A DNA stretch of 64,000 bases from Pocillopora verrucosa. Lineage: Eukaryota; Cnidaria; Anthozoa; Scleractinia; Pocilloporidae. A program made the translations under genes and the position numbers. The notes beneath the pieces are model-generated. The model worked only from the letters and a program-made list of their open reading frames with translations. It had not been told where the DNA came from and did not search any database. Numbering within the stretch: the first letter of the stretch is position 1; the number at the start of each line of letters is the position of its first letter. Shown here one piece after another: positions 4,171 to 56,536 of the stretch. The stretch spans positions 16,236,219 to 16,300,218 of the forward strand of contig NC_089322.1 in the NCBI RefSeq assembly GCF_036669915.1, read 5' to 3'.

Positions 4171-6444
4171 CTCCCCCCCCCTCCTCCCCCTCCCCCCCAT
4201 CGATTAATAAATATCGCTCCCTTAGCCTAGCTAGATTGATTTTCCCTTTCCTTAAGTTAATCTCCCTGATTGCGCTGCTTGAGTATTACTTCCCGTTTAA
4301 GGAGGTAAAAGTGTACCTTTCAAGTAGCCTTCCTAAGTTTGTTATTGGAGCCTAGTTAAGTGGGCAACTCCTTCATCTCTAGTCCCTCTTTTTTCGCCCA
4401 TTATTCCCCACCCTTCCCCCCGCACCCCCTTCTCACGCGCCGTTTATATTTGTTGAACCGGAAGGCTGATGTTTGAAAGCTGCATGGTCACAAGAATTAA
4501 CTGAAAATAGTGTGACAGAGAAGAATTGCAGCTGAGCGGTTTTTTATTTCTTTTTGGGCGAATGTGCAAATCGAAAAAAAAACCAGAGTTGAACAAGAGA
4601 AAGAGATGTTAGCGCACCGCTCTGTGCTTTTGGAGTGAGCACTTACGTTAATTTTTTTTTTCACTGATATTTTTAGTATAGCTTTACCGACAATGAGGAA
4701 CTGCCCGTAGTCTAGTGTTGTTTATTGCTAAATAAAATGCTGTAGTTTGGTTTGAAATGTTCATACAGGTTTGAACTAGTTCAAGTTCCCTAAACACAAA
4801 TAACACGTTGACTGAACGCAAATCAACTTGATATTCGTTACGTTTCGTTAACCTTTTTCGTCACGAGACAAAATCATTTACCAGATTTTAGCTGTTTAGA
4901 ATATCAATTAACGTATTCTAATAGCTCTGTCTTACTATCTTTTCCTTTTAAAATGGTTCAAATCGAAGATTCATGAAGCTATCAATATAGAACGGTCGGA
5001 GTTTGCTCAACAGACTAAATTGTATAATCTATTGTCACGCCAGCAAAATCATAAAAAGTTTGAAGTCATTACGAAGAAGGAAATTAGGAAGGAAAGTGCG
5101 AGATGCTTTTATATTTCTATGCTTTGGAACATCTTATTAGAAGAAGTAAGCCGGAGTCTTTAATGGTCTGGTCAAGACTTGAGACGTCGGAAATGAGACT
5201 TAAGAGTCGGCTATGTTCTGAAACTTCACGTTTTATCTTATAAACTCAACTTGATCTCCCTCTCTGTCACACTGTCACTAGTCTCACGCTCTGGTCCATC
5301 TTATTTTAAATATATAATATGATCCTATTGTTATACCATCTGTCACTTAACGCAAAACATCAACCGGAAATCAATTAACGCTGAATAATTTCTAATAATT
5401 TCACCTAAGAAAGAAAGAGTACTTTTGACCAATTTCAGAAAGCAGAAGGGCCTTCTGCAGCATTACTTATTGAGAGCTCTAAATTGTTTTTCAACGTTTT
5501 TCCATAAACCAACAAGGTTTTATTTACTTACTACAAAAGATAATAAAATGGGAAAAGTTTGAGGCGAAACTTTTTTCCGATGCAAAATGCCTTGGACCGC
5601 TCTCACAGAGATTGCCACCTATTGAAAATAGTGCTGCAGAGAAGAATTGCAGCCGAGCGTTTTCTTTTCCTCTTTAACTTTCAACTAAATTTACTTGACA
5701 CAACTATGCACCTACCCGTCCCCTAACACAACATTAACCCTAAGTTGTTATTAGTTGACTGTTTTTGGGTTAAGGGAAGGGTAGGGTCGCAATTCCTTTG
5801 ACATTGATCCTAGCCCACGAGCCGCACCAAATGCGATACGCAAACGAATCAAAATAGGTTACAACCTTTAGAGAGCTAGTTTCCCTTAACATAGGTAAAC
5901 AGACTTTACCTTTTCGTTAGTCTGCTCTCGTGACAGCTCTTGAAAACCAGACATCCGTTAATTATTTCTCTCACGCTTCATTAGAAACAATGAAATCCAG
6001 AACTGATGCTATCAAATGCCGCTCTAGAGAACACACGATCTCTTCTGAAGAGATCCGATTCGCTGCTTTTAATAGAATACTGATTATTTCTCGTGTGGTG
6101 TCAAACAAGTTTCTCGGAATCCCAAACTCATTAAACGGCTGTAAATGTAGCGATGATAAAATCAGGTAGATGGTTTATTTCCAAACTTTCGTAGCATGTT
6201 GTTTTTCATGATACAGCAGGTAGAGCGACACATTCGGTCACGCTATGGAATCGATTTTAGTACGCTGTGATAGAGAAAGTAGACAGTATGTGAATAAAAC
6301 TGAAATGTTAAACTGTCAATCTCTGCGCGAAGATCACGCGATCCTACAGAGATCTGATTCGCTGCTTTAAATAGTATGCTAATCCAAGTTCAGTTTCTCG
6401 GAATCTCAAACAAAACAAAGCTGTGTTTTTATCTGCAATTCGTG
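4171..6444 (+). other. 5' flank and leader of TRIM copy 1
   Basis: Two tandem leader modules lie here. The first (near 6049-6170) has gctgcttttaatagaa, ttctcggaatccc and then atcaggtagat, a possible splice donor at 6166-6168. The second (near 6349-6440) has gctgctttaaatagtatgc, ttctcggaatctc and the ATG. A TATA-like TTTAAATAG lies at 6366-6374. The would-be acceptor before the ATG reads atctgcaattc, without AG. The motif gagaagaattgcagc occurs twice (near 4520 and 5640). Otherwise no gene seen. Confidence 0.5.
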
Positions 6445-8672
6445 ATGGAGTCGCTTCTAAAAAACCTCAAAGAGCATGTAACATGTTCGATTTGTTTCGA
6501 TACTTACACTAAACCAAAGACCATCGCTTGTCTTCATACGTTCTGTTGTGAATGCCTGGAGAGAAATGCACTAACGAGCCAAAAACAAGGGTTTTATCCA
6601 TGTCCCGAGTGTCAGGCACAAATTGGCATTCCCGAAGGAAATCGCTTTGATGATCTACCGAGCAGTTTTCTGCACAACAGTTTGTTGAGTCTTCTTGCTG
6701 TTCGACGCAGTGGCAAAGGAAAGGAGATCAGCTGTAGTACATGCCAGAAGAAGAGCGCTGAGATCAACTACTGCTTTGATTGCGAGAAGTTTATGTGCCC
6801 AGACTGTGTGAATGCACACGAAGTGTTTCGAGAAACTATGTTTGAGGGACACAAAGTCACACCAGTGCAACAGTTTCAAGCCGCAGACTACGAGGCCTTG
6901 TTGAAAAGGCAGTCATTTTGCTCAGAGAATTACCACAAAAAAGATGTGATTCGTTTTTTTTGCGTTGACTGTCAAAGGTGTGTATGTCAAGTTTGCATCG
7001 CCACAGATCACAAAAGCCACGATGTTGTTCCGCTTGAAAAGGCAGCTGACGATGAAAAAGTAAACATCATTGCCAGAGCGCAGCTGGTCAAAGGGAAGAA
7101 AGAGGCTTGCCGAGGTGTTATTCGTGAATTTGAGAAGATGGAACTTGAGTTAGAAACGAACATTACCACAGCTAAACGCCAAGTCTCTCAAGCAACCGAA
7201 CAGATGATGGGAAAGCTTCGCCAACTGGAGCGCGAAGCCATTTCTGCCCTCGAGAAGACTCGCGTGTCAAGGATTGAGAAATTGACTTCTGTAAAAGCAT
7301 CGGTTGTCTCTTTCGAAAAGCAAATTGACCAAGCATTTGAGTTCAGTACCAACCTGGTTCAAAGAAGCTCAAGTTCAGACATAATGCAAAACAGGAAAAA
7401 TGTAGAAGAACGAATCGAAGACCTCATGAAGACCTCAATGCCAGCACTTCCCGTTAGCTCGTTTATAGAATTTGTGACGACATGTGAACTAGAGAGTTTG
7501 AGTCTGGGATTTACGAGATTCAGCGAAACTGATGTGCAAGGATCGGACGTGGAAGGTCTGGATCGGACGTGGAAGGTCTGGATCAGAATTTTCAAGCTGG
7601 TGTAGAGGCAGACCTACTAATTTGTCCCAAGACAAGCGAAGGAGAAATCAGAAACACTCAACACACAGATCGTGTTGAAATACACATGAACCCTGCGGAT
7701 CAGGTGACGAGTTTGGCGACGAGTGAAAAAGAAGATGGAAATTTCCAAGCAAAATTTGTAGCAAAAGTACCAGGTACTTATAAAATGGAAGTAAAGATAA
7801 ATGGACAGAAACTTGCCAAGAGTCCATTTTCTATTCCGGTAAAAGTACGAGAGTTCAATGTTGTAGGCAAGTTGGACGTTCAGGGAGAAATGCTGCAAGG
7901 TCCAGCCGGCATTGCAGTGAACAGTAAAGGCGATATTGCTGTGGCTGATTATGAAGGTCACTGTATACTGGTATTTGATGAGATAGGAAAGTTTGTGCGA
8001 AAACTTGGTTCTTATGGAGACAAGAATGGACAATTAAATAAACCAGACGACGTCACGTTCCTAAACGATGACGAGATTCTGGTGGCGGATCAATGTAATC
8101 ATCGAATACAGCAGTTGAATGTACATACAGGAAACTTTGTGAAAAGCTTTGGAAAAAAGGGAAGTGGAGATGGAGAGTTTAAGAATCCTGGAAGTGTTTG
8201 TATCACAAGTGATAGACGTTTTATCGTTGTAACGGAGTATTCTAACAACAGAATTCAGGTGTTTACAATGGATGGTGAACCAGTGTTTAAGTTTGGAGAC
8301 AGCGGCCCAGAAAGGCTGGATCATCCACTCAGTTGCGTTTGTTACGAGGAAAAGTTCATTGTAACTGACAAGGTTAATAACTGTGTGAAAGTGTTTGATG
8401 AGAGAGGACAGTTTTTGTACAGGTTTGGAGAAAAAGGAAACGGTGATGGACAGTTGAATGAGCCGTATGGCTTATGTGTTGACAAACATAACAATGTTTT
8501 CTTGTGTGAGAAGGGGAATAATCGCATTCAACAGTTTACACAGGAAGGAACTTTCACTGGAAAGACAAGTACTAATATCCAATTCCAAGGGTCCTGGAGT
8601 GTTACCAAAATGCTAGATGATCGGGTTTTGGTCACAGACTACAAAGGGAAAGAAGTTTACATTCTGAAATGA
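6445..8672 (+). pseudogene. TRIM-NHL copy 1, frameshifted by a 20-bp duplication
   Basis: Homologous over its whole length to the intact 735-residue copies. From the ATG at 6445 (MESLLKNL) the frame encodes a C3HC4 RING, two B-boxes and a coiled coil. An exact 20-bp tandem duplication at 7541-7580 then shifts the frame, and translation stops at 7605 after about 13 junk residues. The filamin-type Ig domain and six NHL blades continue open in the other frame to 8672, but that part has no ATG of its own near its start. As written the locus can make only a RING/B-box/coiled-coil protein of about 386 residues without the substrate-binding NHL propeller. All zinc ligands are intact and there is no other lesion, so the break looks recent. 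A sequencing or assembly error is possible. Confidence 0.85.
7541..7580. repeat. 20-bp exact tandem duplication
   Basis: gatcggacgtggaaggtctg occurs at 7541-7560 and again at 7561-7580. The intact copies have one version at this place. Twenty is not a multiple of three, so the duplication causes the frameshift in TRIM copy 1. Confidence 0.97.
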
Positions 8673-10025: not shown

Positions 10026-11507
10026 TGCAATACAGCATCAGTATCTAGAGACTTAATCATTGGTCATGTTCAGAATTCTTTTAAGACTAGACTTTGTATG
10101 GTAATATTGTAAACTATATAAGAAATTTTCAACTAAGTGTCGAAAATAGTCATGGATATAGTCATGGGCATTGGTTTAGCTTGACTATAGTCTGTTATTG
10201 GTTTAGAAAGCCATTGTCGCCTTCTTGACCAATCAAGGGTCAAAAAGAAATCTTCGCCAAAGTTGTAGGGCCATCTTCATATATTAAACTCAGAGGCTTG
10301 TTTCTTAAAAGTACCGGTAACTTAGCGGGCCACAAACCCTATTTTATAGTTAATATTTAAAGAATAGAGAAGCTGGTTCGGATACCCTAACCAGTCCATT
10401 TTAAATATTTTATTGATAGTTTAACTGAATAATTTTCAAAATTTTTTAAAGCCTATTTTGATTGTAAACAGAACTGCTTTACAGGCCTCATAAGGTATCA
10501 GGCCTTTCAAGAGAAAGTCCCCCACTTATTACACTTCCTAAACTTGTTATTTAGACTAGCAAACCCATTTTGAAGTACTTGTTCCTACAATCAAGTACCG
10601 GACTACAACAAACGAGACCAAGACTTTATGAAACTTCCAACTGAATGCTAATAAACCTGTCAATCTTGTAATACTTTTTTTAACTTTTAGTTTATCCAGA
10701 AGTGGTGGAGGTCGCACAGGTCATGTTTTTATCCCCCCCCCCTTCTTTCCCCCATCGATTAATAAAGACCGCTCCCTAAGCTTAGTTAGATTGATTTTTC
10801 CTTTCCCAAAGTTAATCTCCCTGAATGCGCTGCTTGAATATTACTTCCCGTTTAAGGAGGTAAAAGTGTAGCGTTTACCAGTTCAATTAGCCTTCCTAAG
10901 TTTGGTATTGGAGCTTAGTTAAGTGGGCGACTCCTTCATCTCTAGTCCTTCTTTTTTTCACCCAGATTTTACCTTTTCGTGAGTCCGCTCTCGTGACAGC
11001 TCTTGAAAACCAGACATCCGTTAATTATTTCTCTCACGCTTCTTCAGAATCATTGAAATCCAGAACTGATGCTATCAAATGCCGCTCTAGAGAACACACG
11101 ATCTCTTCTGAAGAGATCCGATTCGCTGCTTTTAATAGAATACTGATTATTTCTCGTGTGGTGTCAAACAAGTTTCTCGGAATCCCAAACTCATTTAACG
11201 GCTGTAAATGTAGCGATGATAAAATGAGGTAGATGGTTTATTTCCAAACTTTCGTAGCATGTTGTTTTTCATGATACAGCAGGTAGAGCGACACATTGGG
11301 TCACGCTATGGAATCGATTTTAGTACGCTGTGATAGAGAAAGTAGACAATATGTGAATAAAATTGCAATGTAAAACTATCAATCTCTACGCGAAGATCAC
11401 GCGATCCTACAGAGATCTGATTCGCTGCTTTAAATAGTATGCTAATCCAAGTTCAGTTTCTCGGAATCTCAAACAAAACAAAGCTGTGTTTTTATCTGCA
11501 ATTCGTG
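10026..11507 (+). other. Spacer 1 remainder and 5' leader of TRIM copy 2
   Basis: From about 10230 the unit has lost the promoter-like module and resumes in intron-1-like DNA of the FHA-RING scrap, ending with ttttagttta and ccagaagtggtgg near 10690. The TRIM leader follows. It has two tandem core modules, the first with gctgcttttaatagaa near 11125 and an atgag/gtagat donor-like site at 11228-11231, the second with TTTAAATAG at 11429-11437. As in copy 1, the pre-ATG acceptor is lost (atctgcaattc). Confidence 0.5.
11429..11437 (+). promoter_or_regulatory. TATA-like box before TRIM copy 2
   Basis: TTTAAATAG, preceded by gattcgctgc, lies 71 bp before the chosen ATG. The same box is at 6366-6374, 32015-32023 and 47678-47686, and is lost in copy 6 where the sequence reads ttcgctgatagaatgc. 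A related box (TTTTAATAG) lies about 300 bp further upstream. Its role is inferred from sequence and position only. Confidence 0.35.
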
Positions 11508-13712
11508 ATGGAGTCGCTTCTAAAAAACCTCAAAGAGCATGTAACATGTTCGATTTGTTTCGATACTTACACCAAACCCAAGACCATTGCTTGTCTTCAT
11601 ACGTTCTGCTGTGAATGCCTGGAGAGACATGCACTAACGAGCCAAAAACAAGGGTTTTATCGATGCCCCGAGTGTCAGGCACAAATTGGCATCCCCGAAG
11701 GAAATCGCTTTGATGATCTGCCGAGCAGTTTTCTGCACAACAGTTTGTTGAGTCTTCTTGATGTTCGACGCAGCGGCGAAGGAAGTGAGATCAGCTGTAG
11801 TACATGCCAGAAGAAGAGCGCTGAGATCAACTACTGCTTTGATTGCGAGAAGTTTATGTGCCCCGACTGTGTGAAAGCACACGAAGTGTTTCGAGAAACT
11901 ATGTTTGAGGGACACAAAGTCACACCAGTGCAACAGTTTCAAGCCGCAGACTACGAGGCCTTGTTGAAAAGGCAGTCATTTTGCTCAGAGAATTACCACA
12001 AAAAAGATGTGATTCGTTTTTTTTGCGTTGACTGTCAAAGGTGTGTATGTCAAGTTTGCATCGCCACAGATCACAAAAGCCACGATGTTGTTCCGCTTGA
12101 AAAGGCAGCTGACGATGAAAAAGTAAACATCATTGCCAGAGCGCAGCTGGTCAAAGAGAAGAAAGAGGCTTGCCGAGGTGTTATTCGTGAATTTGAGAAG
12201 ACGGAACTTGAGTTAGAAACAAACATTACCACAGCTAAACGCCAAGTCTTTCAAGCAACCGAACAGATGATGGGAAAGCTTCGCCAACTGGAGCGCGAAG
12301 CCATTTCTGCCCTCGAGAAGACTCGCGTGTCAAGGATTGAGAAATTACATTCTGGAAAAGCATCGGTTGTGTCTTTTGAAAAGCAACTTGACCAAGCATT
12401 TGAGTTCAGTAACAACCTGGTTGAGAGAAGCTCAAGTTCAGACATAATGCAAAACAAGAAAAATGTAGAAGAACGAATCGAAGACCTCATCAAGACCACA
12501 ATGCCAGCACTTCCGGCTAGCTCGTGTGTAGAATTTGTGACGACATGTAAACCAGAGAGTTTGAGTCTGGGATTTACGAAATTCAGCGAAACAGATGTGC
12601 AAGGATCGGCCGTAGAAGGACTGGATCAGAATTTCCAAGCTGGTGTAGAGGCAGAGTTACTAATTTGTCCCAAAACAAGGGAAGGAGAAATCAGAAACAC
12701 TCAGCACACAGATCGTGTTGAAATACACATAGACCTTGCTGATCAGGTGAGGAGCTTGGTGACGAGTGAAAAAGAAGATGGAAATTTCCAAGCAAAATTT
12801 GTAGCGAAAGTACCAGGTATTTATAAAATAGAATTAAAGATAAATGGAGAGAAACTTGCCCGGAGTCCATTTTCTATTCTGGTCAAAGCACGAGAGTTAA
12901 ATGTTATAGGCAAGTTGGACGTTCGGGGAGAAAAGCTGCAAGGTCCTGCCGGTATTGCAGTGAACAGTAAAGGTGTTATTGCTGTGGCTGATTATGAAAG
13001 ACACTGTATCCTGCTATTTGATGAGAAAGGATTTTGGTATGAATTTGGTTCTTATGGAGACAAGAATGGACGATTAAAGAATCCAGCTGACGTCACATTC
13101 CTCAACGATGACGAGATTCTGGTGGCAGATGACTCTAATCACCGAATACAGCAGTTGAATGTACACACAGCGAACTTTGTGAAAAGCTTCGGAAAAAAGG
13201 GAAGTGGAGATGGAGAGTTTGAGAATCCTGTAAGTGTTTGTATTACAAGTGATGAACGTTTTATCGTTGCAGTGGATTTTAATAACAGCAGAATTCAGGT
13301 GTTTACAATGGATGGTGAACCTGTGTTTAAGTTTGGAGACAGCGGTCCAGAAAGGCTGGATCATCCCACCGACTGCGTTTGTTACGAGGAAAAGTTCTTT
13401 GTAGCTGACATGAATAATAACTGTGTGAAAGTGTTTAATGAGAGAGGACAGTTTTTGTACAAGTTTGGAGAAAAAGGAAACGGTGATGGACAGATGGATA
13501 AGCCGTATGGCTTATGTGTTGACAAACATAATAACCTTTTCTTATGTGATTGGGGAAATAATCGAGTTCAACAGTTTACATTGGAAGGAACTTTCACTGG
13601 AAAGACAAGTTCAAATATTCAGTTTGGATGGCCGTGGAGTGTCACCCCAATGCTAGATGATCGGATTGTGGTCGCAGACTTCGGAAAGAAAGAAGTTTAC
13701 ATTCTGAAATGA
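11508..13712 (+). CDS. TRIM-NHL E3 ubiquitin ligase, copy 2 (TRIM2/3/71-like)
   Basis: Predicted cytoplasmic RING-type E3 ubiquitin ligase of 734 residues. Numbering from the longer frame opening at 11439: RING C37-C40-C52-H54-C57-C60-C76-C79; B-box 1 about 118-162; B-box 2 with C182, C196, C199, C204, C207, H212 and H215; coiled coil about 220-365; filamin/Ig domain about 400-505; six NHL blades about 508-757. The domain order is that of TRIM2, TRIM3 and TRIM71. I chose the start at residue 24 (MESLLKNL) because RING proteins of this family begin just before the RING, and because the upstream ATG abuts a TATA-like box (11429-11437). Blade 1 is unusual: GFWYEFGS replaces the GKFVRKLGS of the other copies. 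Single coding exon. Domain calls are secure; ligand and substrates are unknown. Confidence 0.94.
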   Translation: MESLLKNLKEHVTCSICFDTYTKPKTIACLHTFCCECLERHALTSQKQGFYRCPECQAQIGIPEGNRFDDLPSSFLHNSLLSLLDVRRSGEGSEISCSTCQKKSAEINYCFDCEKFMCPDCVKAHEVFRETMFEGHKVTPVQQFQAADYEALLKRQSFCSENYHKKDVIRFFCVDCQRCVCQVCIATDHKSHDVVPLEKAADDEKVNIIARAQLVKEKKEACRGVIREFEKTELELETNITTAKRQVFQATEQMMGKLRQLEREAISALEKTRVSRIEKLHSGKASVVSFEKQLDQAFEFSNNLVERSSSSDIMQNKKNVEERIEDLIKTTMPALPASSCVEFVTTCKPESLSLGFTKFSETDVQGSAVEGLDQNFQAGVEAELLICPKTREGEIRNTQHTDRVEIHIDLADQVRSLVTSEKEDGNFQAKFVAKVPGIYKIELKINGEKLARSPFSILVKARELNVIGKLDVRGEKLQGPAGIAVNSKGVIAVADYERHCILLFDEKGFWYEFGSYGDKNGRLKNPADVTFLNDDEILVADDSNHRIQQLNVHTANFVKSFGKKGSGDGEFENPVSVCITSDERFIVAVDFNNSRIQVFTMDGEPVFKFGDSGPERLDHPTDCVCYEEKFFVADMNNNCVKVFNERGQFLYKFGEKGNGDGQMDKPYGLCVDKHNNLFLCDWGNNRVQQFTLEGTFTGKTSSNIQFGWPWSVTPMLDDRIVVADFGKKEVYILK

Positions 13713-18160: not shown

Positions 18161-18723
18161 CCGAATACAGCAATTGAATGTACAGACAGGGAACTTTGTG
18201 AAAAGCTTTGGCAAAGAGGGAAGTGGAGATGGAGAGTTTGTGTCTCCTGTAGGTGTTTGTATTACAGGTGACGGACGTTTTATCGTTGTAACGGAGTTTG
18301 CTAACAGCATAATTCAGGTGTTTACAATGGATGGTGAACCTGTGTTTAAGTTTGGAGACAACGGCCCAGAAAGGCTGGATCATCCCACCAGCTGCGTTTG
18401 TTACAAGGAAAAGTTCTTTGTAACTGACAAGAATAATAACTGTGTGAAAGTGTTTGATGAGAGAGGACAATTTCTGTACAAATTTGGGACACGGTGATGG
18501 ACAGATGGATACGCCGTATGGCTTATGTTTTGACAAACATAACAACGTTTTGGTATATGATGCGAGGAACATTCGCATTCAACAGTTTACTCTGGAAGGA
18601 GCTTTCACTGGAAAGACAAGTTCAAATATTCAATTTGGATTGTCCTGGAGTGTTACCTCAATGTTAGATGATCGGATTTTGGTCACAGGCTTCCGCGGAA
18701 AAGAAGTTTACATTCTGAAGTGA
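18161..18723 (+). pseudogene. TRIM-NHL copy 3, 5'-truncated NHL fragment
   Basis: Homology to the intact copies starts abruptly at ccgaatacagcaattgaatg, about two blades into the NHL propeller, and runs to the normal stop. RING, B-boxes, coiled coil, filamin domain and first blades are gone, together with the 5' half of the spacer, so one deletion removed both. A second lesion is an 8-nt deletion near 18487 (aatttgggacacggtgatgg against a longer sequence with gagaaaaaggaaac), which shifts the frame before blade 5. No initiating ATG is available. Clearly a dead gene fragment, although its blade loops show the same kind of variation as the intact copies (for example FAN and ARN). Confidence 0.9.
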
Positions 18724-21153: not shown

Positions 21154-21762
21154 GAAACGGGGGGCACGGCTTTTGGGTACCCATTTTAAGAATACACTGT
21201 TTTATATCTGTGTGTACATATCATATAAAGTTACTATGGCAATATAAGAACCGCAATCAGATTAATTAATTAATTAATTAACTATTATTACCGACCTTTG
21301 CTGTATATTCAAACTTTCACGATGCCACACAACGACAGCATCAAGGGGAAAAATTCCCTATTTTGTGCATACACTGTCCGAACAGACTGGGTTCGGAAAC
21401 ATCTAAATTCAATTAAAAGTACAAAACTTTGCATGCTGATCAACACAGTTCGCGCGTATCGAGCCTACGAGCGATGTGAGCATGACAGAGATCCGCGAGA
21501 AAACAAAACATCACTTTCACATTCATTCCTCATATCCGTTATCCTTTTCCCTATTCCTGATTTTGCTAACGAGAAGTTACACCCGAGCTTTTCCGATCTT
21601 GTCCGAACGATTTCCGAATATCGTGTCGTACTGTTAAAATGGCCGCTTGGAGAGTACTTCAAGAACACAGTCAAGAAGAATCTTGAAGTGGTATGAGAGG
21701 CTTTTGCACACTGAAACAGAGGAGAAAAATGCTCCGTCTGCAGAGGGTCGAAGGTAATTGCT
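21154..21762 (+). other. Upstream of FHA-RING gene A
   Basis: Begins with the DNA that follows the promoter module in other units (gaatacactgttttatatct), then a (TTAA)n-like run near 21262-21282. It continues with atgccacacaacgacagcat near 21320, the original of the scrap kept in every spacer. A 132-codon frame (21298-21696) overlaps it but resembles nothing I know. Part may be a 5' exon of the FHA-RING gene. Confidence 0.35.
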
Positions 21763-30140: not shown

Positions 30141-32093
30141 CCCATCGATTAATAACAACTGCTCCCTTAGTCAGATTGATTTCCCCTTTCCCAAACTTAA
30201 CCTCTTTGAATGCGCTGCTTCTGTTACTTTCCGTTTAAGGAGGTAAAAGTGTAGCATTTACCTTTCAGCCTTCCTGACTGCCCGTAGTCTAGTGCTGTTA
30301 TCGCCGGTTACACTAAATAAAATGCTGTAGTTTGGTGTGAAATTTTCATAAAGGTTTGAACTAGTTTAAGTTCTCTGAACTCAAATATAAAAGAACATAA
30401 ACCAATGTTAAAAAAAAAAGTTAATCGTTAACACAGTGACCGAACACAAATCAACGTGATATTCGTTACGTTTTGTTTACCTTTTTCGTCACGAGACAAA
30501 ATCATTTTCCAGATTTTAGCCATTTAAAATGTTTAGAGTATCAATCGATGTATTCTAAAAGCTCTGTCCTGCTATCTTTTCTTTTTAAAATGGTTCAAAT
30601 CTAAGATTTATAAAGCAACCAGTATATAACGGTCGGCGTTTACTCGACAGATAATGTGCACAATTTACTGTCACGCTAGCAAAATCACCAAAAGTTTGAA
30701 GTCCCTACGGCGGAGGAAATTAGGAAGGAACATGCAAGATGTTTTTGTATTTCTAAGCTTTCGAACATCTTACTAATGGAATCAGCCGGAGTTTTTAATG
30801 GTCTGATCTGCACTTGAGAAATATCACCCAAGTAAGAAAGAGTACCTTTAACCAATTTCAGAAAGCTTTCTAACAGGTGCTTTAAATAAATTATGGCGAA
30901 CCTCTGAATAAACACCTATCAAAATTGAAATCCTTTCCCAACCCTATAGATATCACACAATTAAGGAATACAAACGATTTCTTGCAGCATGCAGTGTGTT
31001 ACGAGGAGCAAGCTTGTCACCTATTCAAATTTTCGATGTCGCAAGAGGTCAAAAGAGGAATTCTACAGCTTTGATTATTGAGATGTCTCAATTGTTTTTT
31101 AAGGTATTTCCAGAAACCAATGTGGTTTTATTTACTTACTTAAAAAGATAATAAATGATAGATAATAGAAAAAGATAATAAAAGTTTGAGGCAAAACTCT
31201 TTTCCGATGCAAAATGCCCTGGACCGCTGTTACAGAGACTGCCACTTATTGAAAATAGTGTGCCAGAGGAGAATCGCAACCGAGCGTTTTTTTTTCCCCT
31301 TTAACTTTCACCTAAACTTACTTGACACAATAACTGCAACAATTGGTTGTCTATGTGACCAACTGTGCACCTACCCCTCCCCTAACCCAACATTAACCCC
31401 AACTTGTTATTAGTTGAGTGTTTTTGGGTTAGGGGAGGGGTAAGGGCGCAATTCCTTCAACATTGATCTTGGTCCACGAGCCGCACCAAATGCAAACGAA
31501 TCAAAATAGGTTACAACCTTTAGAGAGCTAGTTTCCCTTAATATAGGAAAGCAGATTTTACCTTTTCGTTAGTCTCTCGTCACAGCACATGAAAACCAAA
31601 CATCCGTTAATTGTTTCTCTCACGCTTCCTTAGAAACATTGAAATCCAGAGCTGAAGCTATTAAATGCTGCTCTAGAGAACACAAGATCTCTTCTGAAGA
31701 GATCCGATTCGCTTCTTTTCATAGAATCCTGATTATTTCTCGTGTGGTGTCAAAGACGTTTCTCGGAATCCCGAACTCACTAAACGGTGGTAAATGTAGC
31801 GACGATAAAATGAGGTAAATGGTTTATTTCCAAACCTTCGTAGCATGTTGTTTTTCATGATACAGCGGGTAGAGCGACACATTCCGTCACGCTATGAAAT
31901 CGATTTTACTACGCAGTGACAGAGAAAGCAGACGATAGGTGGATAAAATTCCAATGTAAAACTGTCAATCTCTGCGCGAAGATCACGCGATCCTACAGAG
32001 ATCTGATTTGCTGCTTTAAATAGAATGCTAATACAAGTTCAGTTTCTCGGAATCTCAAACGAAACAGGGCTGTGTTTTTCTCAGCAATTCGTG
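30141..32093 (+). other. 5' flank and leader of TRIM copy 4
   Basis: Homologous to 4180-6444 and 54640-56536. It contains a minor direct repeat (gataataaatgatagataat near 31148), the gagaatcgcaaccgagcg motif near 31268, and two leader modules with a TATA-like TTTAAATAG at 32015-32023. This copy has the strongest splice signals for a 5' intron (31815-32084). No separate gene seen. Confidence 0.5.
31815..32084 (+). other. Candidate 270-bp 5'-UTR intron of TRIM copy 4
   Basis: The donor reads atgag/gtaaat and the acceptor tgtgtttttctcag/caattc, with the ATG 9 nt after the acceptor. The donor is kept as gtagat in copies 1 and 2. The acceptor AG is present in copies 4 and 5 but lost in copies 1 and 2 (atctgc) and copy 6 (ctcaac). 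Inferred from splice consensus only. Confidence 0.4.
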
Positions 32094-34301
32094 ATGGAGT
32101 CGCTTCTAAAAAACCTCAAAGAGCACGTAACATGTTCGATTTGTTTGGATACTTACACCAAACCCAAGACCATTGCTTGTCTTCATACGTTCTGCTGTGA
32201 ATGCCTAGAGAGACATGCACTAGCGAGACAAAAACAGGGGTTTTATCCATGCCCCGAGTGTCAAGCACAAATTGGCATCCCTGAAGGAAAGCGTTTTGAT
32301 AATATGCCGAGCAGTTTTCTGCACAACAGTTTGTTGAGTCTTCTTGCAGTTCGACGCAGCGGCGAAGGAAATGAGATCAGCTGTAGTACATGCCAGAAGA
32401 AGAGCGCTGAGATCAACTACTGCTTTGATTGCGAGAAGTTTATGTGCCCAGACTGTGTGAAAGCACACGAAGTGTTTCGAGAAACTATGTTTGAGGGACA
32501 CAAAGTCACACCAGTGCAACAGTTTCAAGCCTCAGAATACGAGGCCTTGTTGAAAAGGCAGTCATTTTGCTCAGAGAATTACCACAAAAAAGATGTGATT
32601 CGTTTTTTTTGCGTTGACTGTCAAAGGTGTGTATGTCAAGTTTGCATCGCCACTGATCACAAAAGCCACGATGTTGTTCCGCTTGAAAAGGCAGCGGACG
32701 ATGAAAAAGCAAACATCATTGCCCGAGCTGAGCTCGTAAAAGAGAAGAAAGAGGTCTGCCGAGATGTTATTCGTGAATTTGAGAACACGGAACATGAGTT
32801 GGAAACAAATATTACCACAGCTAAACGCCAAGTCTCTCAAGCAACCGAACAGATGATGGGAAAGCTTCGCCAACTGGAGCGTGAAGCCATTACTGTCCTC
32901 GAGAAGACTCGCGTGTCAAGGATTGAGAAATTACATTCTGGAAAAGCATCGGTTGTGTCTTTTGAAAAGCAACTTGACCAAGCATTTGAGTTCAGTAACA
33001 ACCTGGTTGAGAGAAGCTCAAGTTCAGACATAATGCAAAACAAGAAAAATGTAGAAGAACGAATCGAAGACCTCATCAAGACCACAATGCCAGCACTTCC
33101 GGTTAGCTCGTATGTAGAATTTGTGACGACATGTGAACCAGAGAGTTTGAGTCTGGGATTTACGAAATTCAGCGAAACTGATGTGCAAGGATCGGTCATG
33201 AAAGGACTGGATCAAAATTTTCAAACTGGTATAGAGGCAGAGCTACTAATTTGTCCCAAAACAAGCGAAGGAGAAATCAGAAACACTCAGCACACAGATC
33301 GTGTTGAAATACACATGGACCCTGCGGATCAGGTGAGGAGTTTGGCGACGAGTGAAAAAGAGGATGGAAATTTCCAAGGAAAATTTGTAGTGAAAGTACC
33401 AGGTACTTATAAAATAGAAGTAAAGATAAATGGACAGAAACTTGCCAAGAGTCCATTTTCTATTCTGGTTAAAGCACGAGAGTTAAATGTTGTAGGCAAG
33501 TTAGACTTTCAGGGAGAAACGCTCCAAGCTCCAGCCGGCATTGCAGTGAATAGCAAAGGTGTTATTGCTGTGGCTGATCATAGAGGTCACAGTGTCCTGG
33601 TATTTGATGAGACAGGAAAGTTTGTGCGAAAACTTGGTTCCTATGGAGACAAGGATGGACAATTAAACAAACCAGACGATCTCACGTTCATAAACGATGA
33701 CGAGATTCTGGTGGCGGATCAATTGAATCACCGAATACAGCAGTTGAATGTACAGACAGGGAACTTTGTAAAAAGCTTTGGAAAAAAGGGAAGTGGAGAT
33801 GGAGAGTTTACGAATCCCGTAAGTGTTTGTACTACAAGTGATGGATGTTTTATCGTTGTAACAGAGTATGTTAACAGCAGAATTCAGGTGTTTACGATGG
33901 ATAGTGAACCTGTGTTTAAGTTTGGAGACAGCGGCCCAGAAAAACTGGATCGTCCAGTCAGCTGCGTTTATTGCAAGGAAAAGTTCTTTGTAACTGATCT
34001 CAGAAATAACTGTGTGAAAGTGTTTGATGGGAAAGGGCAGTTTTTGTACAAGTTTGGAGAAAAAGGAAACGGTGATGGACAGATTTATTCCCCTTATGGC
34101 TTATGTGTTGACAAAGATAACAACATTTTCTTATGTGAGAAGGGAAATAATCGCGTTGAACAGTTTACATTGGAAGGAACTTTCATTGGAAAGACAAGTA
34201 CTAATATTCAATTTGGATGGCCCTGGAGTGTTACCCCAATGCTAGATGGTCGGATTTTAGTCACAGACTTCAAAGAGAAAGAAGTTTACGTTCTGAAATG
34301 A
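32094..34301 (+). CDS. TRIM-NHL E3 ubiquitin ligase, copy 4
   Basis: Intact 735-residue member of the array, single coding exon. Domains are as in copy 2: C3HC4 RING (CSICLDTY ... CPEC), B-box 1 (CSTCQKKSAEINYCFDCEKF), B-box 2 (FCSENYHKKDVIRFFCVDCQ), coiled coil, filamin/Ig and six NHL blades. Loop residues after the VAD/VTD motif differ from the sister copies (HRG, QLN, YVN, LRN, KGN, FKE). The start is placed at MESLLKNL; a 23-residue upstream extension exists but would begin right after the TATA-like box and lies in the candidate intron. It is the only intact copy in the window whose 5' donor and acceptor both fit consensus well, so it may be the best expressed; this is inference. Confidence 0.95.
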   Translation: MESLLKNLKEHVTCSICLDTYTKPKTIACLHTFCCECLERHALARQKQGFYPCPECQAQIGIPEGKRFDNMPSSFLHNSLLSLLAVRRSGEGNEISCSTCQKKSAEINYCFDCEKFMCPDCVKAHEVFRETMFEGHKVTPVQQFQASEYEALLKRQSFCSENYHKKDVIRFFCVDCQRCVCQVCIATDHKSHDVVPLEKAADDEKANIIARAELVKEKKEVCRDVIREFENTEHELETNITTAKRQVSQATEQMMGKLRQLEREAITVLEKTRVSRIEKLHSGKASVVSFEKQLDQAFEFSNNLVERSSSSDIMQNKKNVEERIEDLIKTTMPALPVSSYVEFVTTCEPESLSLGFTKFSETDVQGSVMKGLDQNFQTGIEAELLICPKTSEGEIRNTQHTDRVEIHMDPADQVRSLATSEKEDGNFQGKFVVKVPGTYKIEVKINGQKLAKSPFSILVKARELNVVGKLDFQGETLQAPAGIAVNSKGVIAVADHRGHSVLVFDETGKFVRKLGSYGDKDGQLNKPDDLTFINDDEILVADQLNHRIQQLNVQTGNFVKSFGKKGSGDGEFTNPVSVCTTSDGCFIVVTEYVNSRIQVFTMDSEPVFKFGDSGPEKLDRPVSCVYCKEKFFVTDLRNNCVKVFDGKGQFLYKFGEKGNGDGQIYSPYGLCVDKDNNIFLCEKGNNRVEQFTLEGTFIGKTSTNIQFGWPWSVTPMLDGRILVTDFKEKEVYVLK

Positions 34302-47040: not shown

Positions 47041-47756
47041 TTGAAAGTTGCACAAGTTTCTTGGAATCTCAACTCACTATACGGCGATAAATATAGCCAT
47101 GATAAAATGAGGTGGATGGTATAATTTCAAACGTTTGCAGCGTGTTCTTTTCGTGATACAATGGCTAGAGCGACACATTCGGTCACGCTATCAGGGAATC
47201 GATATAGTTACGCAGTGATGGAGAAAGTAGACAGTAGGTGAATAAAATTGAAATGCAAAACTGTCAATCTCTGTGCAAAGATCACATGATTCTCAAGGGA
47301 TCTAATTCGCTTCTTTAAATATAATTCAGTTTCTCGGAATCTCAGACAAAAGAAGGTGTGTTTCTCTCAGCAATTCGTAATGGAGTCGCTTCCAAAAAAC
47401 CTCTCTAATAATTTTCGTGTGGAATCAAAAAAAGTTTCTCGGAATCCCAAACTCACTAAACGGCGGTAAATGTAGCGATGATAAAATGAGCTAGATGGTA
47501 CATGAACAAACGTTCCCAGCGTGGTGTATCTCGTGATACAGTTGCTACAGCGACACATTCGGTCGCGCTATGAAATCGATTTTACTGCGCAGTGATAGAG
47601 AAAGTAAACAATAGGTGAATAAAATTGTAATTCAAAACTGTCAATCACGCGATCCCTACAGAGATCTGCTTCGCTGCTTTAAATAGAATGCTAATCCAAG
47701 TTCAGTTTCTCGGAATCTCAAACAAAATAGGGCTGTGTTTCACTCAGCAATTCGTG
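47041..47756 (+). other. Duplicated 5' leader of TRIM copy 5
   Basis: The leader occurs twice. The first pass (47060-47404) ends with the start codon region of a TRIM gene; the second (47405-47756) leads to the real copy 5. The TATA-like TTTAAATAG is at 47678-47686 and the acceptor ctcag before the ATG is intact. Confidence 0.55.
47381..47470 (+). pseudogene. TRIM start-codon stub fused to leader DNA
   Basis: tgtttctctcag/caattcgta is followed by ATG and MESLPKNL, matching the first eight codons of the TRIM genes. The frame then runs into leader sequence (attttcgtgtggaatc) and stops after 29 codons. It is a footprint of an unequal crossover or deletion that removed almost a whole TRIM copy. 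Confidence 0.75.
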
Positions 47757-49964
47757 ATGGAGTCACTTCTAAAAGACCTCAAGAAACATGTAACATGCTC
47801 GATTTGTTTGGATACTTACACCAAACCGAAGACCATTGCTTGCCTTCATACGTTCTGCTGTGAATGCCTGGAGAGACATGCACTAACGAGCCAAAAACAA
47901 GGGTTTTATCGATGCCCCGAGTGTCAGGCACAAATTGGCATCCCTGAAGGAAAGCGTTTTGATAAACTTCCGAGCAGTTTTCTGCACAACAGTTTGTTGA
48001 GTCTTCTCGCCGTTCGACGCAGCGGCGAGGGAAATGAAATCAGCTGTAGCACATGCCAGAAGAAGAGCGCTGAGATCAATTACTGCTTTGATTGCGAGAA
48101 GTTTATGTGCCCAGAGTGTGTGAAAGCACACGAAGTATTTCGAGAAACTTTGTTTCAAGGACACAAAGTCACACCAGTGCGACAGTTTCAAGCTACAGAC
48201 TACGAGGCGTTGTTGAAACGGCAGTCATTTTGCACCGTTAAGTATCACGAGAAAGAAGTAACAAAGTTTTTCTGTGTGGGCTGTCAAAGCTGCGTGTGTC
48301 AGGTTTGCATCGCCACTGATCACAAGAGCCACGATGTTGTTCCGCTTGAAAAGGCAGCGGACGATGAAAAAGCAAACATCATTGCCAGAGCAAAGCTGGT
48401 CAAAGAGAGGAAGGAGGTCTGCCGAGGTGTTATTCGTGAATTTGAAAACACGGAAAATGAGTTGGAAACGAACATTACCACAGCTAAACGCCAAGTTTCC
48501 CAAGCAACCGAACAGATGATGGGAAAGCTTCGCCAACTAGAACGTGAAGCCATTACTGCCCTAGAGAAGACTCGCGTGTCAAGGATTGAGAAATTACATT
48601 CTGGAAAAGCATCGGTTGTCTCTTTGGAAAAGCAACTTGACCAAGCATTTGAGTTCAGTAACAACCTGGTTGAGAGAAGCTCAAGTTCAGACATAATGCA
48701 AAACAAGAAAAATGTAGAAGAACGAATCAAAGACCTCATCGAGACCACAATGCCTGCACTTCCGGTTAGCTCGTGTGTGGAGTTTGTGTCGACATGTGAA
48801 CCAGAGAGTTTGAATCTGGGATTTACGAAGTTCAGCAAGACAGATGTGCAAGGATCGACCGTGGAAGGACTGGATCAGAATTTCCAAGCTGGTGTAGAGG
48901 CAGAGCTACTAATTTGTCCCAAATCAAGCGAAGGAGAAATCAGAAACACTCAGCACACAGATCGTGTTGAAATACACGTAAACCCTGCGGATCAGGTGAG
49001 GAGCTTGGTGACGAGTGAAAAAGAAGATGGAAATTTCCAAGCAAAATTTGTAGCGAAAGTACCTGGTCCTTATAAAATAGAATTAAAGATAAATGGACAG
49101 AAACTTGCCCGGAGTCCATTTTCTTTTCTGGTCAAAGCACGAGAGTTAAATGTTATAGGCAAGTTGGACGTTCAGGGAGAAATGCTGCAATGTCCTGCCG
49201 GCATTGCAGTGAACAGTAAAGGTGTTATTGCAGTGGCTGATCTGAATCGTCATTGTATCCTGGTATTTGATGAGACAGGAAAGTTTGTGCGAAAAATTGG
49301 TTCTTATGGAGATGAGAATGGACAATTAAAGAATCCAGCTGAGGTCACGTTCCTCAACGATGACGAGATTCTTGTGGCAGATGAATATAATCACCGAATA
49401 CAGCAGTTTAATGTACAGACAGGAAACTTTGCGAAAAGCTTTGGAAAAAAGGGAAGTGGAGATGGAGAGTTTGAGAATCCTGTAAGTGTTTGTATTACAA
49501 GTGATGGACGTTTTATCGTTGTAGCGGATTTTAATAACAGCAGAATTCAGGTGTTTACAATGGATGGTGAACCTGTGTTTAAGTTTGGAGACAGCGGTCC
49601 AGAAAGGCTGGATCATCCCATCGACTGCGTTTGTTACGAGGAAAAGTTCTTTGTAGCTGACATGAATAATAACTGTGTGAAAGTGTTTGATGAGAGAGGA
49701 CAGTTTTTGTACAAGTTTGGAGAAATAGGAAATGGTGATGGACAGTTGAATCAGCCGCATGGCTTATGTGTTGACAAACATAATAACGTTTTCTTATGTG
49801 ATTGGGGAAATAATCGAGTTCAACAGTTTACATTGGAAGGAGCTTTCACTGGAAAGACAAGTTCAAATATTCAGTTTGGACGGCCGTGGAGTGTCACCCC
49901 AATGCTAGATGATCGGATTGTGGTCACAGACTTCAGAAAGAAAGAAGTTTACATTCTGAAATGA
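47757..49964 (+). CDS. TRIM-NHL E3 ubiquitin ligase, copy 5
   Basis: Intact 735-residue copy, single coding exon, same domain order as its sisters. B-box 2 has a sharply divergent patch (48231-48303): FCTVKYHEKEVTKFFCVGCQ where others have FCSENYHKKDVIRFFCVDCQ, with all zinc ligands kept. B-box 1 also reads CPECVKAHEVFRETLFQGHK. NHL loop residues are LNR, EYN, FNN, MNN, WGN and FRK. The patch against an otherwise nearly identical background suggests gene conversion from another paralog or selection. Start at MESLLKDL, preceded by an acceptor-like cactcag. Function as for copy 2: RING ligase with unknown substrate. Confidence 0.95.
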   Translation: MESLLKDLKKHVTCSICLDTYTKPKTIACLHTFCCECLERHALTSQKQGFYRCPECQAQIGIPEGKRFDKLPSSFLHNSLLSLLAVRRSGEGNEISCSTCQKKSAEINYCFDCEKFMCPECVKAHEVFRETLFQGHKVTPVRQFQATDYEALLKRQSFCTVKYHEKEVTKFFCVGCQSCVCQVCIATDHKSHDVVPLEKAADDEKANIIARAKLVKERKEVCRGVIREFENTENELETNITTAKRQVSQATEQMMGKLRQLEREAITALEKTRVSRIEKLHSGKASVVSLEKQLDQAFEFSNNLVERSSSSDIMQNKKNVEERIKDLIETTMPALPVSSCVEFVSTCEPESLNLGFTKFSKTDVQGSTVEGLDQNFQAGVEAELLICPKSSEGEIRNTQHTDRVEIHVNPADQVRSLVTSEKEDGNFQAKFVAKVPGPYKIELKINGQKLARSPFSFLVKARELNVIGKLDVQGEMLQCPAGIAVNSKGVIAVADLNRHCILVFDETGKFVRKIGSYGDENGQLKNPAEVTFLNDDEILVADEYNHRIQQFNVQTGNFAKSFGKKGSGDGEFENPVSVCITSDGRFIVVADFNNSRIQVFTMDGEPVFKFGDSGPERLDHPIDCVCYEEKFFVADMNNNCVKVFDERGQFLYKFGEIGNGDGQLNQPHGLCVDKHNNVFLCDWGNNRVQQFTLEGAFTGKTSSNIQFGRPWSVTPMLDDRIVVTDFRKKEVYILK

Positions 49965-55905: not shown

Positions 55906-56536
55906 ATGCCTACGCTACCCTCCCTAATCCACGATCCACACCAAATGCGACACACAAACGAATTAAAATAGGTTATAACCATTAAGCTAGGTTCCGTTCT
56001 CAGAAGAAAGCAGATTTTACCTTTCTGTGACAGCACATGATAACCAGACATTTGTTTATTGTTACTTTCTCACGCTTTCTTAGAAACATTGAAATCCAAA
56101 ACTGAAGCTATCAAATGGCGCTCTGGAGAACACGAGATCTCTTCTGAAGAGATCCGATTCGCTGCTTTTAATAGATTACTGCCTATTACTCGTGTGGTGT
56201 CAACAAGTTTCTCGGAATCCCAAACTCACTAAACGCCGGTAAATGTAGGGACGATAAAATGAGGTTGATGGTTTATTTCCAAACCATCGTAGCATGTTGT
56301 TTTTCGTGATACAGTGGCTACTGCGACACATTCGGTCACGCTATGAAATCGATTTTACTACGCAGTCACAGAGAAAGTTCACAATAGGTGGATAAAATTG
56401 CAATGTAAAACTGTCAAACTCCGCCCGAAGATCACGCGATCCTACAGAGATCTGATTCGCTGATAGAATGCTAAGCCAAGTTCAGTTTCTCAGAATCTCA
56501 AACAAAACAGAGCTGTGTTACTCTCAACAATTCGTG
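55906..56536 (+). other. 5' leader of TRIM copy 6
   Basis: Two leader modules as in the other copies, but the proximal TATA-like box is deleted (ttcgctgatagaatgc for ttcgctgctttaaatagaat) and the acceptor reads ctcaac. The distal gctgcttttaatagat near 56160 remains. Confidence 0.5.

Follow-up and report, generated by a model that had tools for sequence, protein, structure and literature searches.

A tandem array of TRIM-NHL genes

The window analysed here, 64,000 nucleotides of the coral Pocillopora verrucosa, lies within a tandem array of TRIM-NHL genes, for which a genome search found 24 intact copies at C11:16.08-16.60 Mb. The parts follow in the order RING, two B-boxes, filamin repeat and six NHL blades, and the intact copies are single-exon. 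Copies lie on the same strand, broken ones beside intact ones, and some recent pairs are near-identical. Copy 1 (6442..8669, + strand; tblastn and Pfam) is split across two overlapping reading frames, the first (6442-7584) running from the RING up to the start of the filamin repeat and the second (7560-8669) holding filamin and NHL. Copy 2 (11505..13709, + strand; C11:16247723-16249927 in the genome search) is a single-exon coding region with RING, two B-boxes, filamin repeat and six NHL blades (Pfam, genome search), and is our reference for residue numbering. Its NHL propeller spans 12888..13709 (+ strand, residues 462-735; Pfam NHL, AlphaFold2, Foldseek). The span first singled out, 12940-13712, is indeed the NHL domain of this copy (ORF 11421-13712); base 12940 is not a codon start, and reading 12940-13712 in frame 1 gives nonsense. 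Copy 3 (18162..18720, + strand) is an NHL-only fragment in two frames (tblastn, with Pfam for the first part), and copies 4 (32091..34298), 5 (47754..49961) and 6 (56534..58741), all on the + strand, are intact TRIM-NHL coding regions (Pfam, genome search, tblastn). Copy 6 and the copy at C11:16090380 have exactly the same coding DNA.

Across the whole genome, 61 of 511 candidate matches were scored, and 53 of these 61 have stop-free full-length frames. The array interval accounts for 30 rows, of which we kept the 24 intact copies; the six rows left out correspond to five loci that carry stops, are truncated or have split frames, copy 1 of the window among them. Codon models used 23 copies, one of the 24 being an exact duplicate that was left out. 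Further paralogue sets came from C13 (8 of 17 rows), C8 (8 of 8) and an inverted group on C11 (5 of 5), and a single C10 row was left aside.

RING and two B-box stretches are present in copies 2, 4, 5 and 6 (Pfam). The zinc-ligand Cys and His residues of the RING and B-boxes are kept: all 29 Cys and His of copy 2 within the first 200 columns are invariant among the 23 distinct copies. A candidate coiled-coil region, at about residues 199-362 of copy 2, separates B-box 2 from filamin. The NHL repeats of copy 2 match PF01436 (Pfam, E 9.2e-30), and the AlphaFold2 model of this domain has a mean pLDDT of 76.9 and a propeller-like strand order. The 23 best Foldseek rows are all NHL domains (TM-score by query 0.74-0.79), the best matches being those of Thin, TRIM2, Brat and TRIM71/LIN41. 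C-terminal NHL repeats with a predicted six-bladed propeller place the array proteins, as modelled, in TRIM-NHL class VII / Subfamily C. In copies 2, 4, 5 and 6, Pfam searches to E 0.001 gave no SPRY or PRY match. The passages of PMC2533329 on domain order describe human TRIM71 as R-B1-B2-CC-IGFLMN-NHL(6) and TRIM2/3 with one B-box. The array proteins share with TRIM71/LIN41 and TRIM2/3 the RING, B-box(es), filamin repeat and six-bladed NHL propeller, but differ from them in forming a tandem array of 24 intact single-exon copies.

A ring of variable positions on the propeller

The original observation was that the two or three residues following each VAD/VTD motif change from copy to copy in every blade. 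The residue triplets that it quoted for each blade agree letter for letter with the translations of copies 1, 2, 4, 5 and 6. The first two residues (x1 and x2) vary in all blades; the third varies in blades 1 and 6 (entropy 0.61 and 1.64), but is nearly fixed in blades 2-5 (0 to 0.25). Among the 24 intact copies, mean entropy is 2.06 bits at the 12 x1 and x2 positions and 0.36 in the remainder of the NHL domain (AUC 0.988, p 1.3e-9); 11 of these 12 positions rank in the top 16 of 737 alignment columns by variability. The pattern was nevertheless incomplete, as it missed the residues flanking the blade-opening proline (P-1 and P+1), whose entropy is 0.79 to 2.27. The four positions P-1, P+1, x1 and x2 in each of the six blades define a ring of 24 positions, which supplies 15 of the 16 most variable columns and stands out from the rest of the NHL domain (AUC 0.986, p 1.1e-16). 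Within the array, gaps in the ring occur only at blade 1 x2, in four near-identical copies.

On the + strand of copy 2, the ring codons of blade 1 lie within 12939..12998 (P-1 at 12942, P+1 at 12948, x1 at 12993, x2 at 12996), together with P-2 at 12939, a LIN41 contact homologue outside the ring. Those of blade 2 lie within 13080..13136 (13080, 13086, 13131 and 13134, in the same order, + strand), of blade 3 within 13224..13283 (13224, 13230, 13278, 13281; + strand), and of blade 4 within 13362..13415 (13362, 13368, 13410, 13413; + strand). Blade 5 has its ring codons within 13500..13556 (13500, 13506, 13551, 13554; + strand) and blade 6 within 13629..13685 (13629, 13635, 13680, 13683; + strand).

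We assigned the face of the propeller from loop topology in the AlphaFold2 model and from published contacts of zebrafish LIN41 (DrLIN41), not from coordinates. The consulted parts of PMC5908797 place 14 RNA-contact residues of DrLIN41 on the upper face of its NHL domain, the face on which NHL domains bind RNA (PMC5908797, PMC9070667, in part). The variable ring of the array coincides with these positions: 13 of the 14 contact homologues lie inside it and the fourteenth is a residue adjoining it, and the 14 homologues are themselves highly variable (AUC 0.977, p 1.8e-10). The variable sites thus cluster on one face of the propeller, as predicted, by topology rather than by coordinates.

Selection and recombination

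The ring evolves with an excess of amino-acid changes. In codon models that we scripted ourselves, and whose site posteriors stand without calibration by simulation, ring omega was 4.5, 4.9 and 5.1 on three trees (LRT 47, 50 and 55 against 1), and 4.80 with per-blade trees (LRT 39.5). The rest of the NHL domain gave 0.56-0.58, the RING-to-filamin part 0.31-0.43, and the opposite-face loops a dN/dS of 0.36. The expected dN/dS above 1 was found at the 12 sites first noticed (6.6, LRT 30.1) as well as for the 24-site ring (4.9, LRT 49.5), and the low value of the opposite-face loops, with 13 of 14 contact homologues in the ring, agrees with the proposal of one face evolving as a recognition surface. 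Tree-free counts give the same picture: ring pN/pS is 2.50 over 253 pairs and 2.27 over 11 disjoint nearest pairs, versus 0.28 and 0.41 for the opposite face and 0.28 and 0.36 for the RING-to-filamin part. When the ring was shifted by -12 to +12 residues, with true ring sites removed, the 24 sham rings yielded 0.22-1.09, against 4.91 for the true ring. We reject general surface variability on account of these shams and of the opposite-face loops, and relaxed constraint because omega is far above 1.

The signal is strongest at the homologues of the LIN41 contacts in the window's array, where pN/pS reaches 3.96 (253 pairs) and 2.88 (11 disjoint nearest pairs). Their omega of 18.6 (LRT 64.4) is inflated because the synonymous estimate there is low (0.43 of that of the rest); the other ring sites have an omega of 1.8, which is not significant (LRT 3.4). 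Sites with a posterior of at least 0.95 number 33, of which 26 are in the NHL domain, 11 of these outside the ring; the other seven come before that domain, and six of these fall in the filamin repeat. A dN/dS above 1 is concentrated on the binding-type face, with some selected sites elsewhere, chiefly in the filamin repeat, and the ligand-type face is very probably under diversifying selection. The youngest copies (>99% identical) differ by 18 distinct amino-acid changes, ten before the NHL domain, five in it outside the ring and three in the ring; these three exceed the ring's share of columns (24/737), yet are no majority.

A selected ring was found in all four sets tested (45 genes). Ring omega in the other sets was 2.1-2.6 (C8), 3.9-4.8 (C13, where three of the 24 ring positions were dropped for gaps) and 4.1-4.3 (inverted C11), with LRT values of 5.8 to 20.7; over all C8 pairs, ring pN/pS was only 1.15. 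Among pairs >85% identical, pN/pS of the LIN41 contact homologues versus the whole ring was 1.53 versus 1.64 in C8, 1.68 versus 2.04 in C13 and 1.45 versus 1.62 in inverted C11. As the contacts are not more selected than the ring in these three sets, the exact LIN41 footprint is no general rule. By entropy, the contacts are more variable than other ring sites in the window's array (p 0.006), in C8 (p 0.019) and, marginally, in inverted C11 (p 0.055), whereas C13 shows no such extra entropy (p 0.39).

Recombination between copies is extensive and mixes blades. The trees of the N-terminal part and of the NHL domain have only two of 20 splits in common, and none of 500 permutations was as low as observed in the incompatibility test. 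Recombination as sole cause of the ring signal is rejected, since per-blade trees and tree-free counts agree.

What the ring may recognise

We lean, with moderate confidence, towards reading this array of predicted TRIM-NHL E3 ligases as a germline-diversified intracellular recognition family with a non-self protein target. The ring face would bind the target, with different copies binding different targets, a coiled coil would dimerise the protein, and the RING would ubiquitinate the target or signal. The immune or self/non-self role proposed originally would follow from the selection pattern and from analogy with other families. The array may then represent a restriction-factor-like or sensor family using the NHL propeller as variable module in place of the vertebrate B30.2/SPRY. 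It resembles finTRIMs and TRIM5alpha in lineage-specific duplication, in selection on ligand loops of the C-terminal domain and in its recombination signal; positive selection on finTRIM B30.2 loops is described in the available part of PMC2657112. The C-terminal B30.2/SPRY of finTRIMs and TRIM5 was not found by Pfam in copies 2, 4, 5 and 6: unlike that beta sandwich, the variable module here is an NHL propeller, and the host animal is not a bilaterian.

The targets would most likely be fast-evolving non-self proteins, viral, bacterial or from symbionts, given the nearly neutral charge of the ring. Its net charge is -2 to +5 across the 24 copies, versus +8 at the same 24 positions of DrLIN41, and this favours a protein over an RNA backbone as the target, a preference taken from charge alone. 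We dropped ring aromatic content as an argument for protein over RNA, since F/W/Y residues (4 to 8 of 24 in array copies) are about as frequent as in LIN41 (5 of 24).

The ring might instead recognise RNA (viral, transposon or host mRNA) in the style of LIN41 or Brat, its variation setting RNA specificity. We consider this possible but rather doubtful. It would account for the position of the contact homologues, 13 of 14 in the ring and the last adjoining it, and for their higher omega in the window's array (18.6 versus 1.8, LRT 3.4, at other ring sites), and published NHL domains bind RNA on this very face (PMC5908797, PMC9070667, as excerpted). The NHL-like domain of human TRIM56 restricts viruses by binding RNA, viral RNA included, and binds proteins too (PMC11768893, in part). 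TRIM56 shares with the array proteins the RING, two B-boxes, coiled coil (here a candidate) and NHL-like propeller, but carries a disordered region in front of the NHL-like domain, in the place of their filamin repeat, and the portion of PMC11768893 consulted describes no tandem array or selected ring. Against RNA stands the charge of the ring, which weakens simple LIN41-like hairpin binding. The basic upper-face contact residues of LIN41/TRIM71 RNA-hairpin binders were not found, either among the copy 2 contacts, where 0/14 residues are identical to DrLIN41, or in the ring charge of the 24 copies; unlike that of TRIM71/LIN41 and TRIM2/3, the ring is positively selected and not basic. Moreover, RNA binding of the Brat kind is considered improbable for TRIM2/TRIM3, whose groove is less polar (PMC9634614, in part).

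Specialisation of duplicated E3 ligases on different endogenous protein substrates could also produce positive selection; such neofunctionalisation of the ring, without any pathogen, we find unlikely. In humans, NHL TRIMs act in homeostasis and development (PMC9634614, in part), and outside the ring purifying selection prevails on average in the intact array genes. Yet vertebrate group 1 TRIMs, to which NHL TRIMs belong because group 2 is defined by SPRY, evolve slowly, with an average human-mouse Ka/Ks of 0.13 (PMC2533329, in part). The same-strand array, with its broken and near-identical copies and its blade shuffling, looks more like a birth-and-death arms race.

Corals have colony allorecognition. 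That recognition between colonies, or genome conflict with selfish elements, drives the ring is less probable still, as Pfam matches of the scanned copies include no extracellular or membrane domain. A parallel, and a precedent for our main reading as well, comes from fungal HNWD receptors (HET-E, HET-D, HET-R), which use positively selected residues on the interaction face of a WD40 propeller for allorecognition and exchange sequence both within and between members of the family (PMC12222747, PMC4986451, both in part). These differ in having WD40 instead of NHL repeats and an NLR architecture instead of a RING; their repeats are nearly identical within a protein, whereas the blades within one array protein differ and exchange is seen between paralogues. 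An artefact, in which relaxed constraint, a mutation hotspot, misalignment or recombination mimics selection, is highly improbable: recombination is real and the codon models are home-made, but relaxation cannot yield an omega of 4.5-5, in the array the ring exceeds the rest in synonymous rate by a factor of just 1.1-1.2, tree-free counts and per-blade trees agree, shifted shams carry no signal, and gaps are confined to one position in four copies.

On the broadest reading, reef-building corals may hold a large, germline-encoded and recombining repertoire of E3-ligase receptors, with the NHL propeller as hypervariable non-self sensor independently re-creating the solution of B30.2 TRIMs and WD40 NLRs; on this broader proposal our confidence is evenly divided. 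Its independent counterparts would be vertebrate B30.2 TRIMs and fungal WD40 NLRs. Until now, the NHL propeller has mostly been seen as a module that binds RNA or protein in development. Among vertebrate TRIMs, those lacking SPRY form the conserved group according to the excerpted text of PMC2533329, so that specialists on the family would not expect selection of this kind in an array of NHL TRIMs. Among the open-access papers listed, subscription journals being mostly outside this search, none reports NHL propellers under positive selection in an expanded family of TRIMs. Accounts of cnidarian immunity usually centre on Toll-like, NLR and lectin families (e.g. PMC10236652, in part), and in two further cnidarian papers the passages containing 'trim' concern only the trimming of reads or alignments (PMC5094078, PMC12005167). 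The selected ring offers defined residues and genes that can be tested as coral sensors of viruses, bacteria and algal symbionts. It also shows which NHL positions vary in nature while open frame and scaffold are kept, which bears on how NHL domains come to bind new ligands. In merulinid corals, NHL-repeat and B-box orthogroups are expanded (PMC11639872, in part).

Variable positions and selection in the array

Across the 24 intact TRIM-NHL copies of the array at C11:16.08-16.60 Mb, variability, measured as per-column entropy, concentrates in a ring of 24 propeller positions, four per blade. We defined these from the anatomy of the repeat: P-1 and P+1 flank the blade-opening proline, and x1 and x2 follow the VAD-type motif. 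Mean entropy was 1.83 in the ring vs 0.30 elsewhere in the NHL domain (AUC 0.986, p 1.1e-16), a p value that is not blind, the four-position set having been fixed after inspection of the window copies, the LIN41 contacts and the ranked list. The ring supplied all of the ten most variable of the 737 columns, and 15 of the top sixteen. Two sets have an independent origin: the contacts come from the literature, and x1,x2 from the original prediction, which had noticed in five window copies that the residues after each VAD/VTD motif change from copy to copy; every triplet it quoted is present in the translations.

Selection was assessed with a self-written codon model (MG94-type rates, transition bias, position-specific base frequencies), with synonymous rate and omega estimated separately for each named codon set. 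On trees of the whole gene, of the NHL domain minus the ring and of the part before the NHL domain, ring omega was 4.50, 4.90 and 5.12 (LRT 47, 50 and 55 vs omega 1), while the three trees gave 0.56-0.58 for the remainder of the NHL domain and 0.31-0.43 for the part before it. At x1,x2, predicted to evolve as part of a recognition surface, dN/dS indeed exceeded one (omega 6.6, LRT 30.1); P-1,P+1 had omega 3.9 (LRT 19.6) and the opposite-face loops (58 residues) 0.36, all on the NHL-minus-ring tree. When the ring was shifted by -12 to +12 residues and true ring sites were taken out (leaving 18 to 24 sites), the 24 sham sets gave omega of 0.22-1.09, against 4.91 for the true ring. Tree-free pN/pS was 2.50 in the ring and 0.28 on the opposite face over 253 pairs, and 2.27 and 0.41 over 11 disjoint nearest pairs. 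A posterior for positive selection of at least 0.95 was reached at 33 of the 737 sites: 26 in the NHL domain, including 15 in the ring, and seven before it, six of which are in the filamin repeat. In copy 2, our numbering reference, these six are residues 369, 381, 389, 391, 409 and 444 (window 12609-12836), possibly a second variable surface.

The copies also bear marks of recombination. Only two of 20 splits are common to the N-terminal and NHL trees, the closest relative switches from blade to blade in many copies, and compatibility between nearby sites far exceeds that under permutation (in each of four tests, none of 500 permutations attained the value observed). A recent pair, 99.5% identical, differs in a short patch at residues 664-668 that includes two ring changes, from which we infer exchange of a small tract. 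With one tree per blade, ring omega was 4.80 (LRT 39.5). The 18 distinct amino-acid changes of the youngest copies comprise three in the ring, five elsewhere in the NHL domain and ten before it.

Three other paralogue sets show the same pattern: eight genes on C8, eight on C13 (21 positions) and five in the inverted group of C11. Respectively, ring entropy AUC was 0.876, 0.926 and 0.905, and ring omega 2.1-2.6 (LRT 5.8-8.4), 3.9-4.8 (LRT 18.6-20.7) and 4.1-4.3 (LRT 9.5-9.6). Among pairs more than 85% identical, uncorrected ring pN/pS was 1.64, 2.04 and 1.62; for C8 it was 1.15 when every pair was included.

Face of the propeller and the LIN41 contacts

A single-sequence AlphaFold2 model of the filamin end and NHL domain of copy 2 (mean pLDDT 76.9) had as top Foldseek matches the NHL domains of Thin, TRIM2, Brat, TRIM71 and LIN41. 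Positions x1,x2 lie within the loop joining the second and third blade strands, and P-1,P+1 at the entry of the preceding blade's loop into the first strand. Strand 2-3 loops and loops entering strand 1 lie on one face of a propeller. This loop topology and geometry place the variable sites on a single face, as predicted, and the LIN41 contacts agree.

In Kumari et al. 2018 (PMC5908797), the RNA stem-loop site of zebrafish LIN41 is on the 'upper' surface, opposite the filamin domain, and the residues touching the stem-loop or stacking include C563, R564, R581, S582, R611, K628, D629, Y658, W660, R676, R707, F722, R752 and R770. These 14 contacts were located in the chain with an offset of 415 (residue letters agree in 14 of 14). 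One occupies P-2 and the rest P-1, P+1, x1 or x2; their copy 2 homologues are residues 479, 480, 497, 498, 526, 543, 544, 574, 576, 593, 622, 636, 666 and 684. Within the NHL domain, entropy is elevated at these homologues (AUC 0.977, p 1.8e-10), and 11 of the 14, vs one of 58 opposite-face sites, had a posterior of at least 0.95. Their omega of 18.6 (LRT 64.4) is inflated, their synonymous rate being estimated at just 0.43 times that of the rest; the ring without them had omega 1.8 (LRT 3.4, not significant at 5%). Extra variability exactly at these listed contacts is no general rule across paralogue sets: by entropy, p was 0.019 for C8, 0.055 for the inverted C11 group and 0.39 for C13, and by pN/pS the contacts did not exceed the whole ring in pairs more than 85% identical of these sets.

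Putative function of the variable face

Each copy would dimerise, its propeller face gripping a target and its RING tagging that target or setting off a signal. Ligase function is probably kept, because all 23 distinct copies retain the same RING and B-box Cys/His residues. Ring net charge is -2 to +5 in the coral array copies vs +8 in LIN41, which speaks for protein targets, or RNA contacts unlike those of LIN41, and against phosphate clamping. The aromatic content of the ring does not discriminate between protein and RNA targets.

An array with fast turnover whose binding face is under positive selection fits the pattern of host-microbe conflict, as described for finTRIM and TRIM5 in vertebrates (PMC2657112). 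The same selection pattern is reported for fungal HNWD receptors in allorecognition (PMC12222747, PMC4986451), and TRIM56 shows that antiviral activity is possible for a TRIM carrying an NHL-like domain (PMC11768893). Among vertebrate TRIMs, group 1 is described as highly conserved and group 2 (SPRY) as dynamic (PMC2533329); NHL TRIMs lack SPRY and thus do not belong to group 2. An expansion of NHL-repeat orthogroups is reported for some corals (PMC11639872), and among the open-access papers listed in targeted searches there was no report of positive selection on the NHL face. We rate the array as a putative TRIM recognition family that differs from the known ones in its variable module, the NHL propeller.

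Genomic setting

A search of the genome (353 Mb, 52 contigs) with copy 2 (735 residues) gave 511 candidates, 61 of which were scored; 53 of these 61 were stop-free and spanned 730 residues or more of the query. Among them are the 24 array copies (DNA identity 89-100%, with one exactly identical pair), five inverted copies at C11:15.47-15.56 Mb (81% identical), eight on C8, 15 on C13 and one on C10. Runs of NHL matches at C2:11.2-15.7 Mb and C13:3.3-6.4 Mb, with many open frames of 700-800 residues, are absent from the 61 scored matches and are candidates for additional paralogue sets.

The window spans C11:16236219-16300218, and its six TRIM-NHL copies are all on the + strand. Copies 2, 4, 5 and 6 are intact single-exon genes encoding RING, two B-boxes, a filamin repeat and NHL repeats; copy 1 (6442-8669) is split across two frames and copy 3 (18162-18720) is a fragment, both adjoining intact copies as in birth-and-death evolution. 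Between TRIM copies sits an FHA-domain open frame (21715-22206, +; Pfam E 1.9e-9). It is seen again at seven other sites within 260 kb of array sequence, two of which span just 40 residues, and an FHA gene may therefore be part of the duplicated unit. A tandem repeat at window 40279-40568 (34-base unit, 8.5 copies, 97% matches) is followed by an 88-base array (40555-40773). The host is very probably an anthozoan, in keeping with the two dense clusters of GFP-like proteins at C1:0.67-0.88 Mb and 28.36-28.79 Mb; among the matches listed, all 74 GFP-family exon matches are on C1, and the closest relative with a solved structure of one such exon is amFP486, a sea-anemone protein.
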